Source: Hyaloscypha bicolor E
Lineage: Eukaryota; Ascomycota; Leotiomycetes; Helotiales; Hyaloscyphaceae
DNA: 64,000 bases
Direction: 5' to 3'
Assembly: GCF_002865645.1 (NCBI RefSeq)
Contig: NW_020194637.1
Span: forward strand, 310,001-374,000
The notes under the pieces are model-generated. The model searched no databases and was not told the origin of the DNA. It was given only the letters and a program-made list of their open reading frames with translations. Numbering within the stretch: position 1 is the first letter of the stretch; each line of letters begins with the position of its first letter. The position numbers were made by a program, and so were the translations under genes. Positions 1 through 9,173 of the stretch are shown here, piece by piece.

Positions 1-1762
1 CTAAAGCAGCAGCTGCTCAGGTCCAGAGACGGAAATGGAAAATGTCATGAAATCATTCCGGTGGGGTTGGCCTGCACCACCATCTCGGCGATCAGAGAGA
101 CGGGCCGCTGCTGTGCCACATTCGCTCTCACAATGGGGACCGGTTATCTTTCCACTTGCGGTCTCCCTATCAACACCTTCGGTGAACTCAGGTCGAATGA
201 GGTGCGAGGCTGAGCGAGTAGGCTCGGGATGGTCGACCTCACGGGTGCGTTGCACAAGGGTAAGCCGTTTCTGCGCCACCTTCTCGCGTCTTGCAGTCCA
301 CCCAACTTTCTACTCGACTTTACTAAGAAGAGACTCTATTATTCTCAGCTTACTTTTCTTAAAAGATTTAATAAAAAAAATGATATGGGAGCCTATACTT
401 ATAAAGCACGGGAGCCTGTAACTACAGCACATGTAGAAGGGTCGTTATAGCGCATAAGATCCTCTTTAAAGCCTGCATGTGATCAAGTGCGGGGCTCAGC
501 TTTCAATGCACCAGATGCCCTCTTCTGAGTTCCACACCCATTGGCGCGAGTCGCACGAAATATTAACGGTCGAATGTCGATATTGTGAGGAAGAACGTTG
601 TCAAGTATTCCCAGTTCTAGCTTGATAGCAAGATATCCGCTGGGTTGTTGAGAGCGGTTGGTTTACCCATGGCCGGCTTTGATGGGGGTGTAAACATTTG
701 GGGGAGGAGTTTGGAAGAGTTTAACGGCGGTAAGTAATTTTTGTGAGGAGCGGAGTGGTGGGGTAAGGCCGATGAAGAGTTTACTTGAGGGTTGTTGCTC
801 CAAGATGAGGAGACGTTCTTGGAGAGGGTGGGATGAGGAGCTGAATGGATGAGACGAATTGTATTGCAGCACACACCGAGAGGACGATTTAATCGAAGTC
901 GGCGTTGTTAACGTGAAGTAGAACATCTAACATACTTCTACGCATTGCCTTCACCCTGACCTCTCTTCACATCTGTGTCTCTATTTTAGGTTACCTGTGA
1001 GTGCCGCCTACCCCTTTTCGCAAAGTGAATTAAGCGAACTGCAAGATAGTGACTGTTGCCGCTGTTCTTGTATCCTACAAGTGGCGAGGCCTTGAAATCT
1101 CAACAAGAAGATTAACTCCTTCTGGTAGTCCTACAGAAACGCCAAAGTCGTGAATTGCATCGCCATGCCGAAAACAGTCACGTGAAAGTCACATGACCCT
1201 GGTATCCAATATTTATAGAAGAGGGTTTCCTCGAGAATTGAAGCGATGATCACCCTAAAATCTCAGCAATATTGCAAAGACAAAGAAAAGGGATTCATTG
1301 AAGAGAACTAAGGAATCGATTGATTCATCAATGGAGGAGCTCGCTTGCCTCCGACTCACCGCATCTCATTCAGCTGACAAAAGCTCCCTCATACAACTCC
1401 AACACTCCTCTTCAAGTGAATCGATCCACCCTATCTAGAGCACCATCTACACAACAACGTGGTATAACTTACGGATTGCTCCTGCCAACAAGTGCAAGTT
1501 CAGTGTAGCTTCCCGGGTCGGCAGTGACTCAACTCAACAAGTTCAAGTTCAGTGTTGCTTCCTGGGTCGGCAGTGACTCAACTTCCACCCGGTCAACAAC
1601 CAACGAGTCACGTGGTGTGACTCGGGACGCAACTCAACTCTCCTGCCCTTCCCTTCCTATATCTCAGTAACCAGGACCAGTACCAGTTTGTGCTTTCTGA
1701 TTCCCTTGTGCTCTTCGCCTTTTTTTCCATCGCCTATCAGCGATTTCTTCCGCCCAGCAATC
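1..1762. other. Upstream region without a supported gene
   Basis: The open frames on both strands are short, overlap one another and show no family motif or convincing splice pattern. The only structure seen is a tandem duplication near 1495-1583 and a few CACGTG-type palindromes (around 1180 and 1610). The last few hundred bases are the likely promoter of the gene starting at 1763. Confidence 0.6.
1495..1583. repeat. Imperfect tandem duplication, 49-bp period
   Basis: Two units begin with CAAGTTCAGTGT, at 1495 and 1544, and share GGGTCGGCAGTGACTCAACT. They differ at a few positions (GTAGCTTCCC against GTTGCTTCCT). They lie 180-270 bp upstream of the start codon at 1763, so they could double a regulatory site of that gene; this is inference. 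Confidence 0.7.
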
Positions 1763-4700
1763 ATGGAGCGGATCACCAAGGCGAGTCCCAAGCAATGCCC
1801 GACAGCTCTTGGAACATTGTGGTCGCATTGTCCAATAGTTCCTGGAACATTTGACTCATAATGTCCAACAGCTCCCTGGAACATTCTGAATGCTAACCTT
1901 CTCAAAGGTCGTGTTCGACCCACTCGCAACCACAAAGGCACAGATCCGAGCCCTCCTCAATAATCTGCCAATCGGCTCTGCGCACCCGTTCAGTCCAGAG
2001 CGTCTGCTGCTCTGTCGGGCCGCTACAGGAGTAGAGGAAATCGATATCTCATCGTATCCGGAGAGTCATTTCTTCAATGCGGTGGACTTGGGTGAGCTCG
2101 GTCAGACGCTCCAAACGCGCATGACCAAGTTTGCTTCCCAGCTTCGTAAATTACTGCGTGCCTCCTACACTCGCGCCTGATTACTGACACAAACTCCACA
2201 GAAACGTTCAACGACGAGTACACTGTCCAACAAGCCCCGACCGCGATCTTCAAGGTCCCAATCGAATCAGACAAGATCGCCATCCTCGCGGTTTCCGAGC
2301 GCTACCCAACATATTATGACTTGTGTGTTGCAGACGCGGAATGCAAGACAACTTGCTATGGTTCAACCGCCTCTCTCACTGGCATGCGACATAGTGGGGA
2401 TATCAACGTTGGAAACGATCTTCTCCATCATATCAAGGTCAATGAGCGGCTTCAGTCTGGAAAGGAATTCGCTGTGTTTGTGTCGGGCTTTCAATGCACC
2501 AAGTTGACGAGATTCCACGACCGCAATCCGGTAGTGATGATTGCCAACCACACTGAAAAGGTACTTCGCATGCCCTGATCCTGCTCTAGGCATTTTCCAA
2601 GCTAACTATCTATTTCAAAGGCTTTATACATTGTCCCAGTCCCGCTTGATGCTGCTTCGATTGGAGATGCAACAATCTGCTCTCCGGTTGTGTTCAAGCG
2701 TGATGGAGAATCGCTCATCTGCTCGATACTGCCAACACCAACCTCCGATCTTGGAAAGATGTGCTCAGGATCTTCCTTACAGAGTACATCGTTCCCTGAA
2801 GCCATCCAGCGTGCCGATTGGACGGTTTCTGCTCCTCCTGTATCCCTGAGATCGCATCGTGAGTATATAAAGGTTCTTTAACTTGAATGTACCAGAAGAG
2901 CTGATACATTCCAGCAGCAGCATCCTTCAATACAGCCACTCCCGACATTGCTTCGACCTTAGAAGCAGTATCCTTGATCTCCACCAAACAGAATGCTGTA
3001 TTCGTCACTCAAACGACTGTCTTGCCCTCAATCATTACACCAAACACGACGCAAATCATCCGTTTTGGAACAGGACTAGAGTTTCTGTCTGAAGCACAAG
3101 AGATCGCTCCAGAAAGCAGTCCATCAGCGGTGGTATTGCCATGCATTTTCGGCTCCCGTCTAGAAGGGCCATTGTTGCTTGCGACAGGGAAAACCCCTGA
3201 AAATGTACCTTTCCACGATGAACAGTCACTTCGGGCCTATTATGAGGACTTCGAAAGTGCTGTTGTTTTTGTTGACGAACGCATGACCGATAATGCTAGA
3301 AACCTAGCTACGCCATGGAGAATGAACGCCGTTTTCATCCTTCAGATGACCGCGCTAGCGGCACCCAAAGATGGAGATGTCAAGGCAAGTCCCGAATCCT
3401 CGGAGTATCAAACCATCTAGTGGCAATGTTCAACAACTCAGGGGACATTCTTCTCCTGGAAATATGTTAACGAAATAGGCTGACTCCGATATCATGTGAA
3501 TAGGCAATTTTGGACTTGATCAATATCAGTGCTGTGACAGCGCTTGCTGGGCCACAATCTTTGGTGTTGGTGCAAATCACTGAGAAGTATTACTTTTACA
3601 GAGGTAAGTCCTATCTTCTCGGAGTATTATATTCTCTTGTTGCAATGTCCAACAGCTCTCGGGTCATTCTACTATCAATGTTCAACAGAGGCTTGAATAA
3701 TCTACCTCCGAAAACACCAGAAAGAGGTATGCTGACTCTTGGGAATAGGTATTGCCAACCGATCCATTCTCAATACTTCAAATTTCGCTTTTGGATCAGA
3801 TGTCACGAAGACTGTTGAGTCTACGGGGCTGGAGTCTTTACTGGACCCACGAGCCAAGCGAATGATCAATCTCCGCGACGCAAACACTGTCCTTCTCCCT
3901 AGCTCTGGGAAGATGGCTCTGCCACAAGACCTCAAGGACCTCTTCCAAATCCTCTCTCTCAACCAAATCCACAACCTGGAAGACGACATCTCTGCGATCG
4001 TCCCACAATTGCAGGTAGGTCTTAACTTCTCAGAGCATTGACATCTCGCATACCGATGTCCAACAGCTCTTCGTACATTCTATTCGCAATGTCCAGTAGC
4101 TGCTGGAACATTCAAAGAAGCATGCTAATCTCTTTTTCTTGGGAATAGGTCCTTATGAACCAAAAGGATCTGGTGGATCTCTCCCGAGCTTTAATTTCCG
4201 TCTTCTCCGCGAAAATTGGTGACGCAACGGCCCCTCGAAGAACTGCGTACATCAATTTCCTGACCAAAGAATACGAAATGTTGAATCCGGATTCGGTTAA
4301 GAAGAAGAATTCGATGCTCGGCGATCTCAGAAAGGACAGCAAACGAGTACAAAAGAGCCTCGAGTCAATCATCACTCATCTGAGCAACATGATGTCTTCC
4401 CAAACGACTTCCAAGCGGACACATGACCTCAAACGCTTAGAGCGGCAATCTGCTATTCAGAACAATGTCGAAGCGGTTAAGTCCATGACTTTCGATACTT
4501 TGGCAGGACTTCTGGAGATGAAAGCCGCAGAAATGGGAGTTCTACTTTTGAACATCGAGACCACGCCTTACAAGCAACTCCTAGGAAATTTGAAGGCTAA
4601 TTCTCTTAATGTCAATCCATGCTGCGACCTAGACGCGAGAGTGAGTACAACCGGGCTCTTTTGGCTTCCAATCTTGAACGTGCTCTTGAGATATTTGTGA

Positions 4701-6441
4701 GTTAGAAAGATACTGACTCCCGATGTTCTAGGTTCTCTTCCTCGAAGGCTTCGACGCCGGGATCATTTTGGAACAATCACAGTCCAACCACGATGGCCCA
4801 CTGAAGCACCAACTCGGAGCCTCTCATCCCGTCCTCGCGCTTCCATACCTTTCTCAAGAGCGCGGCACCGGTTCGATGCTGGCTTGGGTGTGCTGGGACG
4901 AGTTCGTCAACCTCGAAACTCCATTCGAAGTGAGATGGATGGAGAAGTGCAATGAATCGCATATCGCTGCGCTGAGGGTCATGATGCGAGATACTCTCAG
5001 TTCAGCTGTGACATCAAGAGAATATAATATGCAACCTGGAAGCCCCGAAACAGGTCAACTTATGAGCGCTCTGATGATGGCTGCAATGTCCAAACTTGCT
5101 GCTATGAGAACATCAGCTCCAACACGTACAATCACAGCCCAGGATACAGTCACGAAGTTGATGCGTGGGTTGTTCGGTAATCTTCTGACCACAGCTGGCT
5201 CAGGAGTTCGCCCAATGAGTATGGTATGGCAACTGTTTGGCCGGGAGCCAAAGCTTGAGGTTCCTGCAACTGCTGTAGCCTGGAGCTGGTACGAGACTGT
5301 GGTTAGATTGTACCCATTCACTGGCTGGCCTCAAGAGCAATTCAACCTGAACTTGGAAAAGCTGCTCGACAAAGCTCTCCTCGCCATCATCACGAAGAAC
5401 GAGATTACGGAAAAGATCAAGATAACTCATGTGGATAGGATGGTAAAGTATTGCCAACTTCGAAACATTCAGCTTGATCATTCCCGATCCATTGTCACCA
5501 TCTTCATCCAAATGATGAATAGCGACGTCGACCGCAGCGCAATCGCCACCCGTCTCTTGGCCGCTCTCCCGTCGCACCTCCCAAATCAAACCCAATCCTA
5601 CCCGAAAATGTTACGCTACCTCAAATACGTTGCCTCGACCGGCTCACATCGTGAAGAAGATGACATTGTGGTCGTCAGCGTCTACCTCAAACGCTCCGCA
5701 GTTTTTAAGGCATTCAAACAATCTGTCGCGCAAGCATGCCGCGACAATAACAACGCAGAAATCAAGAAGCACTGTCTAGCGTTGATGGCGAAGTTTAATG
5801 AGATCGTCGAGAGCTGGAAACTACAACACGCGAAGCTGATCATGCAGAACTTCAAGGCCTATCAAGGACTGCTGGATACGCATTGCGATGAGGGAGTTGA
5901 GATGGAGGACTTCGCCAAGACACAGCGTAAAGACCTCATGCACCAGGTCATCAGTGATGCAGAGAAATCAAGGGTCCCGTGGCAAGTCGGCAAGGAGGGA
6001 GAGTTCGGAGACGACATCGAGCCGGTTGACGAAGCATTCGTTCACGAAATCATGACTGGTGAGAAGGCGCCTGTTTTCAAAGTAGTAAAACAAGTCGTTT
6101 CCGGAACACACGTCGCAGTCAAGCCTGTTGGAATGATGCAATTCTCCTCCCTTGTCAATGGAGACTTCATTACGAAGATGGAGAATGTGATTACTTCACA
6201 GGATGTCTGCAAGATTATGAATGTGCCTGTCTCTGCAATGCGGGCCTTTGCTACTGCACTCAACCCGGAATTTGAGATAGAGAAGCACCTCGGTCTGAAC
6301 TTCAAGAACGTGGTAATTGCCCTTTTGTCAGACCGGAAGGAGAGAGAGAAGCAGTGGCCAGTTAGGAGATTGTTTGGCATGGTTGAGAGGGAGTCAGAGG
6401 GTGGAATTGGGCCTGGGATCGAGATCGAGTTAGAGGGTTGA
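1763..6441 (+). CDS. Nine-exon gene, 1276-aa protein of unknown function
   Basis: Proposed exons are 1763-1780, 1908-2091, 2202-2560, 2621-2858, 2921-3384, 3504-3603, 3749-4014, 4149-4640 and 4732-6441. They join without a frame break or stop to give 3831 nt. The first exon is only six codons and relies on a GC donor at 1781; a second GC donor is at 3385. I recognise no domain. The N-terminal 600 residues are rich in Val, Thr and Ile like a beta-structured protein. The part from about residue 540 on is charged and looks helical (a KKK...LRKDSKRVQKSLE-like stretch near 600). There is no signal peptide or obvious membrane segment. Reading through nine exons with consistent frames argues that it is a functional gene. 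Its introns 1, 5, 6 and 7 carry related repeats, annotated separately. Confidence is high for the gene, moderate for the first exon, and nil for function. Confidence 0.8.
1781..1907 (+). repeat. Intron 1 with three 25-bp palindromic repeats, 33-nt period
   Basis: This is a GC-AG intron (GCGAGT donor, TGCTAAC branch-like site, CAAAG acceptor). Copies at 1794-1818, 1827-1851 and 1860-1885 each start with AATG/ATTG plus a CCAACAG-like block and end in CTGGAACATT. Copy starts are exactly 33 nt apart, separated by 8-nt spacers. Each copy is an imperfect palindrome around AGCT, so the transcript can form hairpins. The array fills most of the intron. Confidence 0.85.
3385..3503 (+). repeat. Intron 5, introner-like, one 25-bp repeat copy
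   Basis: This GC-AG intron (GCAAGTCC donor, GTGAATAG acceptor) has one clear copy of the palindromic repeat at 3425-3449. Its first 65 nt align with those of introns 6 and 7: the donor, a TCGGAGTAT block about 16 nt in, then the repeat copy about 40 nt in. Confidence 0.75.
3604..3748 (+). repeat. Intron 6, introner-like, repeats at 33-nt spacing
   Basis: The intron has a GTAAGTCC donor and ends in TCTTGGGAATAG, the same 12 nt that end intron 7. A good repeat copy is at 3644-3668 and a decayed one at 3677-3701, again 33 nt apart. No internal exon is needed to keep frame. Confidence 0.75.
4015..4148 (+). repeat. Intron 7, introner-like, two repeats at 33-nt spacing
   Basis: The intron has a GTAGGTC donor, a TGCTAAT branch-like site and a TCTTGGGAATAG acceptor. 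Repeat copies lie at 4055-4079 and 4088-4112 (33-nt period). The second copy is a near-perfect palindrome running from AATGTCCAG to CTGGAACATT. Confidence 0.8.
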
Positions 6442-6959
6442 ATTTGGTGGTACGATGATGCATGCGAGCAGGGGCCAAGGAGCATTCATTGTATTGGTAT
6501 TTTTTCTATTTTGGTGCTTTGAGCGCACCCTAATTCGCAGTTTTGCGGCCTCTGTGGATCGAACATAGTGCCTCGATTAATGATCTGAAGTTGATTTCTT
6601 CTGCCGCTCTCTCAACTATTCGGAATCCGAGCATTGTGAGCAAGCAAGACTAAGGTAAACCAAAGCCTCACATCTTATTACAGAACTTATCTTTATTTTA
6701 ATTTATAAAATTTGTTAAAATATTGTGGCTCTCTATTAACCTGTTATAAGAAGAAATATAGAGAATATGTGAATTTCCCCCAGCAAAGTGAGGAATTGCC
6801 GACGAGTAACTACTCGATTTATATAAAGCTGAATTTTATTATTAAATTTTTAATCTGAAATATTTCTAGAATCTGTATTAAACCCGAGCTCTATTTAATG
6901 TATCAGTTCTACTAAAAGGCAGTCCTAATTCGGTATATTTCATATATTTAAAACATAGA
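6442..6959. other. AT-rich intergenic gap between convergent genes
   Basis: The 3' ends of the 1276-aa and 669-aa genes face each other here. From about 6680 the sequence becomes AT-rich with TTTATT/AATAAA-like stretches suited to polyadenylation on both strands. No gene or repeat is recognised. Confidence 0.6.
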
Positions 6960-9173
6960 TTAATAATCAAACACATCATCGTCGGCTTCCGCACCACCGG
7001 CCGGCGTGATGACTTGCTCATAGAAAGGCTCAATCAAGATTTTATACCCTCCACCATCATCAACTCTCCTCGCCCTCGCTTCCGCCCGCGACCCCTTCAG
7101 CTTTTCAGCAAACGCAGCTTTGGCCGTGGTCCAGGCATCCTCGGCATCGCCGTGGACCGTCAAGATCGTGTTGGAGAAGGGGGTCCGCAGCGTGAGCTTT
7201 ACCTTTTCGATGTGCTGGCCCCGCTGGGTCACCTTTGCGATCCCATCGAGGAACTCGGCGAGGAGGAGCCCCTGGAATTTTCCTTCGTTCCAGAGTTCTT
7301 CCGTGTAAAGCGGTTCCCGGGTGATGATCCAGAAGGGGATTTGGATCCTCGGGCGAGGGACCGGGGTACTGGGTTGAGACAAGGCTTGCGGGACTACTGG
7401 TGGTTCTGGGGTTGCATGCTGCATTTTAGTGGGAAGCGGCTCTCTTGCTGTATTTGAAGCAGTCGTTGACTGCAAGGAAGGTGTCGGAGGCTTGCCTGGC
7501 GGTCCGCTGTAAGCATCATTCGTTGAGAGTGAACCGCCTTGCAACGATAATCCGGAATGCTCTCTTGCGAAGCTCAGAGGTACCACGTCGTTATCGTCGT
7601 TTGATGAAACTGATGCTGCCTTCCTTGGAAACGGTGGCGAGGTGGGAGTTGATTTCGGTTGGCGTCCAGTTGAAGAGGCCACATTGTCCTGTTCTAGACT
7701 CGAAGAAGCCGGCTTACCTCTCACAGCTTTCTTAATCTTGGTATGAGAAGTTGCAGATTGAATGCCTGCAGTGGGATTGGGTGGCAGTGTCTTGGATTTT
7801 TGAAGTCGATCTGAATGCGGCATCTCCAGGGGGACATCCTTCATAGATGGAGCAGGTTGATCTGTCGACAGAGATGGCTGCGGTGCCGTGGGCCGTTGGG
7901 TTGAGATCATCGGGGCTGTCGGTGCAGCAAATGGACCATTGGGCGAATCACTCTGGTCTGATATAGCATGTGCGAGTCCTCCCGAAGCGGAAATATTCGG
8001 GCCTAGTTGTAGACAGACTGTCGAGTCTGACTGCTGTTTCTTTGACACACCTGACAAAGGACTTGGGGGGCCAATCTCAGCCTCAGCGTCTTCCATATCG
8101 AGAAGCATATCCACTACCTCCGGCGGCACTACATCGGCCAGGGAGCGAGATTGCCGTTTTCGTTCAGTTCTTCGTGGCGACTCTTCTGTTTGGTGCTTTT
8201 TTCTTTTTCGTGCTTCATTCTCATCATCTGGTCGCTCATCTCGAGAATGTTTGCCTGTCTGAGCAGATGGAAAGGCTCGTGTTGGCGCGTCTTGGTCATC
8301 CTGGCTGCATGTAAGCGGGCGAGCGTAGAAGATAATTGGAAAGTGTATGTTGACGTTGATTGCAAACTTACCGAGCTGTCAGGGACGTCGCACATATGAT
8401 CAACCTCATGAGGACCGTGGGTGGCTGCATCCCCTCGCCGTTCCGCGCCTTCGGCGATTACTGGAGATGCCGTCGCGACTTCCGTTGGCCTTGTGGGCGC
8501 TGCGGGCCTAGAATGCTATGATTAGTTTTCGCTGCTGCGAATACGGCGGACGAGAACGACACTAACATCTTGTTCTCATTCTTCCTGTTTTGGCCTGGAA
8601 GGGATGTGGTCGAGGGAGAGGTAGCACACTTCTCGTGACTCTCGCGTGCAGGCGTCGATTGATCAGTCGAACCGCCGCGAGAACGAGAATCCGTTGATTT
8701 GCCATTGTAGCGAGAGTTGTTGTTAAGGTATCGATTTTGTTTCCAGAAGAGTTGCACGAGAAGGTCGATAATCCTGCAATATAGAATAAGCATTATAAGC
8801 GAGCGACTTTGAGGCGAGAAAGGTTGGGTGGGTGCTGGCAGTCTTACCTGTCTCTGTCCTTGGGATAGTGTAAATCGGACGGTTGGGCCCAAGGTCTGGT
8901 GGGGTTCCAAAAGCGCTCACCGTTGCCATTATCGTCTAAGAACTTCACTGCGGCAGTCCTGAGATCTGTCTGCACCGATGGAAGGTTCCAGTCAACGAGC
9001 GTGGCGACGAGAGAGCCACCGATCGTTTTGCACGACTTCCTGAAAGCGTGGGTCGCATCCATGAACACCGTCGAGTCTTTTAGCGAAGCGTGCTGAATGC
9101 CTAAAAGCTCGGACAGCCGTTTGACAGAAGGCACTTTGCTGAGCGAAGTAGTTGGGCGAGGAGTCGAAGCCAT
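6960..9173 (-). CDS. Four-exon gene, 669-aa protein of unknown function
   Basis: Exons on the minus strand are 9173-8848, 8773-8567, 8507-8372 and 8300-6960; introns are 74, 59 and 71 nt with GT-AG ends. The joined frame is 2010 nt. The N-terminal 130 residues look folded. The middle, about residues 140-530, is low-complexity: Ser/Pro/Thr-rich with a basic stretch near residue 250 (RKRKKH, then RRTERKRQSRS) that could be a nuclear signal. The C-terminal 115 residues, from IPFWIITREPLYTEELW on, look like a compact alpha/beta domain and are probably the conserved part. The first acceptor AG of intron 3 would break the frame; the one 5 nt downstream keeps it. No family is recognised. A nuclear or scaffold role is only a guess from composition. 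Confidence 0.75.

Follow-up and report, generated by a model that had tools for sequence, protein, structure and literature searches.

The origin of new introns is a long-open question. In the Dothideomycetes Fulvia fulva, Dothistroma septosporum and Zymoseptoria tritici, many similar introns known as introner-like elements (ILEs) are found in unrelated genes; according to the parts of the reports available to us, they are longer than ordinary introns, occur several per gene and decay into ordinary ones (PMC4457414), and they have stable predicted folds (PMC3443670). In the symmetrical sister (stw)introns of Hypoxylaceae and Xylariaceae (NTIRE-10), near-terminal complementary repeats join the ends, flanking duplications are absent and symmetry is lost in diverged copies (PMC8469720, PMC12403724, PMC9024468). 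As far as the accessible text of the same three papers goes, these introns are nested twins or cropped forms; a 10-nt palindrome occurs twice inside them, ~100 nt apart, and shortening has been inferred between the two copies, and in Xylaria longipes a cluster of them has GC donors. In Aureococcus and Amoebophrya, introns have been gained genome-wide through one element of the DNA-transposon kind with inverted repeats near its ends, and its direct repeats or target duplications often serve as a splice site (PMC9860276, PMC7789003, both available in part). The DNA-transposon account fits no group of introners less well than those of ascomycetes, judging from the accessible part of PMC9860276.

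The window analysed here, by which we mean the whole 64-kb stretch of DNA, lies in a genome of 82 Mb in 76 contigs. This genome is that of Hyaloscypha bicolor, a mycorrhizal fungus. One gene in the window has eight introns, four of which (i1, i5, i6 and i7) are copies of one ILE family of H. bicolor.

1763..6441, + strand: host gene with eight introns, corresponding to K444DRAFT_646257 of Hyaloscypha bicolor E, uncharacterised
1781..1907, + strand: ILE intron i1, 127 nt, GC-AG, three 33-nt units, both ends eroded
2146..2201, + strand: ordinary intron i2, 56 nt, without unit, boundary taken from the deposited protein and homologues
2561..2620, + strand: ordinary intron i3, 60 nt, without unit
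2859..2914, + strand: ordinary intron i4, 56 nt, without unit
3385..3503, + strand: ILE intron i5, 119 nt, GC-AG, one unit (3425-3449)
3604..3748, + strand: ILE intron i6, 145 nt, GT-AG, units at 3644 and 3677 (decayed)
3604..3627, + strand: conserved ILE 5' end in i6, with the donor and the 5' arm of the near-terminal stem
4015..4148, + strand: ILE intron i7, 134 nt, GT-AG, units at 4055 and 4088
4121..4148, + strand: ILE 3' end in i7, with branch-point-like CTRAY, the 3' stem arm and the acceptor; degenerate, with 7 mismatches to the consensus 3' end
4641..4731, + strand: intron i8, 91 nt, without unit

The family shares with the ILEs of Dothideomycetes all the properties of number, length, distribution and decay mentioned above, and differs from them, as they are described, in its host from Leotiomycetes, in its one to four palindromic 33-nt units and in its mean identity of ~72%. 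It is like the (stw)introns in the near-terminal complementary repeats of its consensus, in the lack of clear flanking duplications, in the loss of symmetry in diverged copies and in having GC donors and internal palindromes; unlike those, the H. bicolor copies read as single introns of canonical form, and their 33-nt palindrome is in tandem. With the introners of the DNA-transposon kind it has in common the genome-wide gain by one element and, in its consensus, the inverted repeats near the ends, whereas the H. bicolor elements bring both splice sites of their own and are not flanked by any conspicuous duplication of 3 nt or more. A Helotiales host is added to the introner-bearing fungi. By titles and beginnings of abstracts, the literature searched (including PMC3510045, PMC3443670, PMC8476143, PMC11889510 and PMC2395259) reports no ILEs in Helotiales, and judged mainly on the same basis it has no tandem palindromic unit in introners, which Van der Burgt 2012, Torriani 2011 or the supplements could hold. 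Words of the consensus occur in 36 papers; among the 20 of these that were listed, the matches were to the two shortest words, and none is an intron paper by title. The kind of element is known; its 33-nt steps and its Helotiales host were not found in the literature searched, as far as these partial texts tell.

At the protein level the host gene is closest to K444DRAFT_646257 of Hyaloscypha bicolor E, with 98% identity, and a Pfam search found no domain in the protein. The deposited protein has 1294 aa, not 1276 aa as given in the original prediction, and is without Val-Lys at i5, where homologues retain two residues. The deposited model appears to take a GT donor at 3379, 6 nt upstream of the GC donor at 3385, and the absence of Val-Lys fits use of the former. 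When 59 homologues (P0002-P0060) out of the 174 found were aligned, all 59 were without an indel within 3 residues of the junctions of i1, i5, i6 and i7; the junction of i4 lies in a poorly conserved stretch, where 27 of the 59 are indel-free. At the protein level, it is thus supported that these four probably act as spliceosomal introns.

The repeated unit is a palindrome of 25 nt, for which the whole 64-kb window was scanned on both strands using the two unit types of the family. Exactly eight places had 7 mismatches or fewer, the next best having 8.

1794, + strand: unit in i1, 3 mismatches
1827, + strand: unit in i1, 3 mismatches
1860, + strand: unit in i1, 6 mismatches and one inserted base
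3425, + strand: unit in i5, 4 mismatches
3644, + strand: unit in i6, 2 mismatches
3677, + strand: unit in i6, 7 mismatches, decayed copy
4055, + strand: unit in i7, 3 mismatches
4088, + strand: unit in i7, 3 mismatches

These best matches of the window are the very seven clear copies and one decayed copy that had been noticed from the sequence in four of the eight introns, and all lie in i1, i5, i6 and i7 on the + strand, in keeping with the statement that the exons have none. The exact step was also confirmed: in each of the three introns with more than one copy, successive units begin 33 nt from one another, the three units of i1 together spanning 1794..1885. To the unit consensus, the window has three matches with 3 mismatches or fewer against 0.00 expected (100 shuffles). 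Positions 1-8000 gave no match to an Rfam family at E up to 1. The idea that each copy can form a hairpin around AGCT has to be narrowed, as AGCT is central in five of the seven clear copies and not in all. Folding of the four real introns gave a mostly weak result, with z of -2.47 for i1, 0.12 for i5, 1.37 for i6 and -1.04 for i7. That the intron consists mostly of the repeat is true of i1, but the non-unit ends make up 86 of the 152 nt of the two-unit consensus.

The repeated entity is the entire intron, from GTAAGTCCC to GGGAATAG, with its own donor, branch-point-like GCTGAC and acceptor. The family consensus starts GTAAGTCCCAACTTCTCGGAGTAT and ends TATGCTGACTCCGATTTCTTGGGAATAG, and GCTGAC in its 3' end presumably corresponds to a fungal branch point. 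By genome-wide patterns of ends and unit, at least ~94 distinct elements were marked, some of which are fragments (the list has 95 entries, one 187-nt element being entered twice, and L107, L111 and L112 were excluded beforehand); the element counts of the genome are to be taken as lower bounds. With 3 mismatches or fewer, the consensus 5' end has 48 matches in the genome and its reversed pattern 1, the consensus 3' end 39 and its reversed pattern 0, while the two unit types occur at 52 and 35 places with 0 and 0 for the controls. A DNA search with i6 returned 13 matches besides itself, six of which span at least nt 1-133 of 145, including a full-length one of 81% at G000:C22:1271288-1271439; i7 returned 9, reaching at most nt 101 of 134, and i1 one partial match. 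With the near-consensus member L009 as query, at least 47 further matches were obtained (40 of the 96 candidates scored). Thus, full-length copies with shared ends bear out the suggestion that introner-like introns with a 33-nt palindromic unit have multiplied. The check proposed with it, whether units in the genome come with intron context, gave the same answer: at the 71 distinct places located by unit patterns alone, a correctly oriented ILE end is present in 60 and a wrongly oriented one in 0. Two of the remaining 11 are intron i1 of the window, three (L016, L113 and L120) look by eye like eroded ILE introns, and six are fragments or have another context (C1:954446, two units at L026, L107, L111 and L112).

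Further comparison used 59 copies with both ends paired, or a set of 56 derived from them by removing L003 (acceptor not found), L031 and L038 (donors AC and AT) as well as the copy of L044 at C70:4843176, whose start is unclear, and by adding i1. Partial copies without both ends and L100-L121 are left out of the 56, and i6 falls outside both sets, since a 7-nt gap near its 3' end, seen in alignment A2, defeats an ungapped match. Two-unit copies have a mean identity of 71.7%, with 88.8% for the highest pair, and the highest one-unit pair reaches 82.4%. There are no near-identical copies in the 56-copy set, and so recent activity of the family is unproven. The lower identity marks an old family and is compatible with its belonging to the ILEs; as far as the available part of the report goes, identity among the ILEs of D. 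septosporum is likewise much lower (PMC4457414).

By assignment to one-, two- and three-unit consensus templates, which are constructs made for this analysis, the 56 copies consist of 24 with one unit, 28 with two and 4 with three (the assignment is ambiguous in L086 and L094), and L085 has four units by eye. Element lengths bunch at 119 and ~150 nt with few at 174-187, and the medians are 119 nt for one unit, 150 nt for two and 179 nt for three. A position-weight scan of the fetched loci, trained on units from these same copies, gave 143 unit matches at 103 places and 0 in shuffled sequence; the spacing is exactly 33 nt in 33 of 40 cases and 32-34 nt in 37 of 40. The original prediction had supposed that addition of units may be how these introns grow. 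Nevertheless, units in the same intron are 69.0% alike, against 69.1% for units at different positions across introns and 72.4% and 73.9% for units at the same position in different introns. Because units within an intron are no more alike than those between introns, the arrays must have been copied whole, and growth by unit addition had to be given up. The array travelled with the element, inherited and not grown in place, and unit number differed among lineages. Single units favour the second type (16 versus 3, with 5 ties), a bias to be expected if a one-unit form is old and equally if units were lost by a deletion between them. On the element tree, which is poorly resolved with 1 of 53 inner branches starred, unit number changes 20 times against a shuffled mean of 21.4 (66 of 200 as low).

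For the consensus, near-terminal stems TCCCAA/TTGGGA and TCGGAGT/ACTCCGA are predicted, followed by a rod of stacked palindromes, with a z of -4.96; the inverted repeat of 6+7 bp starts at nt 6 and stops 4 nt short of the 3' end. The z of the templates is -2.67 with one unit, -4.35 with two and -5.74 with three, and real copies have a mean z of -1.14 (n=56; 12 of 56 below -2), with no relation between fold strength and closeness to the consensus in 56 copies (Spearman 0.02). In 32 copies RNAalifold found no pairs of a common structure. In 32 copies the partners of the near-terminal stem still pair in 83.0% of cells, as against 24-56% when slid and 83.2% when shuffled among copies, and their covariation, too, is about what shuffling gives (0.162 versus 0.155; 118/500). 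Pairing at the shuffled level reflects descent and not selection in place. The unit hairpins have 9 cells with double changes versus 5.0 shuffled (17/500), which we read as inheritance of two unit types and which could also lend weak support to the unit hairpin; the pairing of the rod gives no excess of double changes (4 versus 3.8 shuffled). Selection of an RNA structure after insertion was rejected on the RNAalifold result and on the covariation of the stem. The predicted fold may rather suit copying than splicing.

When the element is removed, an open frame of at least 60 nt is found on both sides in 50 of 58 copies in sense, and also in 35 of 58 in antisense. The codon score, for which the final exon of the host gene and seven long window ORFs (putative genes) served as training set, favours sense in 47 of 59 copies, the other 12 being near or below zero on both strands; the highest antisense score is 0.06 versus up to 0.17 in sense, and no copy is clearly coding antisense. 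The copies thus lean to the coding strand. Among ten host proteins chosen for long open flanks or a recognised motif, nine have a Pfam domain, and it spans the junction in 9 of 9; the domains, which include those of an ABC transporter (ABC_tran Walker A), Zn2Cys6 in two regulators, ankyrin, a mitochondrial carrier and a GDSL lipase, show that the copies sit in genes unrelated to one another, and in these proteins both frame and domain become continuous once the element is taken out. Phases 0, 1 and 2 are all present. Since both ends are constant among copies, the element itself supplies the splice sites. The acceptor is followed by G in 43 of 56 copies and by GT in 25 of 56. Identity at the junctions has a mean of 2.88 nt versus 2.72 when the right exons are shuffled (9/500 as high; 56 copies). 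Runs of 3 nt or more are seen in 34 of 56, with the mean near the shuffled control, and by this comparison the 56 copies give no clear sign of a target duplication of 3 nt or more; a duplication of 1-2 nt may accompany insertion.

GC donors are found in 5 of the 56 copies. The closest copy to i5 (GC, one unit) in that set is L073 (GC, one unit), which the tree joins to L082 (GC, two units) with a support of 80/91, and the likeness of the three suggests that a GC-donor form has spread. Mutated donors occur in L031 (AC), L038 (AT) and L114 (TT), which seem either to have lost splicing or to lie outside coding sequence. It is to be noted that i1, i5 and i7 are each closer to elements elsewhere than to one another, on which ground local duplication within the host gene was rejected. 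The match list of i6 is without the other window introns, and in a separate alignment it is 70% identical to i7 over 101 nt and 74% to i5 over 72 nt. In the genome, six pairs of elements lie within 2 kb, four of them outside the window gene, against 0.22 expected under uniform placement, and by this expectation some genes seem to take repeated insertions.

How could such introns be copied? The explanation we prefer, and consider rather probable, is that one ILE family has been copied as whole introns via a step like reverse splicing and has then decayed. The source element, as RNA or a single strand, would fold into a symmetric rod, be excised, and re-enter the chromosomal DNA of transcribed genes, the likeliest route being an insertion linked to transcription and resembling reverse splicing. 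Inserted copies might then decay freely, as splicing would depend on the ends only, and the host gene would have received several independent insertions, not local duplications. As each unit is palindromic, gain or loss of one leaves the rod symmetric, so that length could change in steps of 33 nt, and such steps could occur with the ability to spread retained. A reverse-splicing-like step into transcribed DNA accounts for the constant ends, the strand lean and the scarcity of clear duplications. Against it, 12 of the 59 copies fail to score higher in sense than in antisense, the 35 of 58 copies open in antisense blunt the strand argument, and the junction identity slightly over the shuffled value makes a duplication of 1-2 nt possible; the missing near-identical copies and the fold strength that does not follow closeness to the consensus also count against it. 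These introns may have been gained recently.

The same elements might instead be copied in double-strand break repair with the intron's RNA or cDNA as template, a route that Fekete et al. proposed for symmetrical Hypoxylaceae introns. As this differs from the reverse-splicing-like route in the copying step alone, the confidences given to the two do not exclude each other, and we regard it as conceivable though doubtful. The symmetric consensus agrees with it, and so do, in the portions at hand, the symmetrical introns without flanking duplications for which two such models were put forward (PMC8469720) and the shorter introns inferred to arise by end-joining between two internal palindromes, a precedent for loss of units (PMC9024468). 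The survival of the ordinary introns i2-i4 between the ILEs speaks against repair from a complete host-gene cDNA. Somewhat less credible, and in our judgement unlikely, is a non-autonomous DNA transposon, that is, a MITE-type introner whose inverted repeats are transposase ends and whose units are binding sites. The consensus does carry the near-terminal inverted repeat of 6+7 bp, and the accessible parts of the literature describe introners outside ascomycetes mostly with TIRs and/or TSDs (PMC9860276) and those of Amoebophrya with inverted repeats of 8-20 nt and direct repeats of 3-5 nt (PMC7789003). The lean of copies to the coding direction, the lack of any copy clearly coding antisense (0.06 versus up to 0.17) and the lack of an outstanding target duplication of 3 nt or more all speak against such an origin, and the ascomycete families are called an outlier without TIRs or TSDs in the available part of PMC9860276. 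Far less probable still is that the palindrome arose within each intron and expanded there by 33-nt steps. The exact period would suit this, and the unit number scattered on the tree means repeated change if the poorly resolved tree is right; in Cryptococcus, too, introns can be added by repeat expansion, there through the copying of repeats with entire introns inside them (PMC2395259, seen in part). Nevertheless, the copies also have both outer ends in common, and local growth of the array was rejected because units within an intron are no more alike than between introns and less alike than units at the same position. To return to the copying of whole introns by a reverse-splicing-like step, the family offers natural variants with anything from 1 to 4 complete palindromic units and with the near-terminal stem intact or not, and thus the role of intron symmetry in copying can be tested directly.

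As a tentative generalization, to which we give a rather low chance, some fungal introners might form a class that moves as a self-complementary rod of stackable palindromes with a family-specific period, the copying machinery recognising symmetry and not loop sequence. With the same reserve, the period would be 33 nt here and ~42-45 nt in a rarer second set (L111, L112 and L121), and length would be set in steps.

Several smaller observations may be added. A second hairpin array, AATGTYC...GRACATT with ~42-45 nt spacing, is seen at L111 (C31:977298), L112 (C33:2257327) and L121 (C49:839789), the last assigned by eye. Genome searches with the whole arrays of L111 and L112 found no relatives, each recovering just itself, and the unit pattern has 3 places in the genome with 0 for the control. 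The ends of these arrays differ from those of the 33-nt family, and L111 and L112 are intron-like by eye. Within the 33-nt family there seems to be a sub-form with an extra ~17-20 nt before the last unit, which by eye resembles, in some copies, GTTCCAGG; the latter is complementary to CCTGGAAC of the unit. Its members are L101, L104, L105, L108, L110, L113, L115, L116, L077, L086, L067 and L094. In the window itself, a 49-bp tandem duplication, 94% identical, lies at 1486-1583 upstream of the host gene, and positions 37000-64000 are AT-rich, with 26.3% GC versus 47.3% in 1-37000 and many short A/T repeats.
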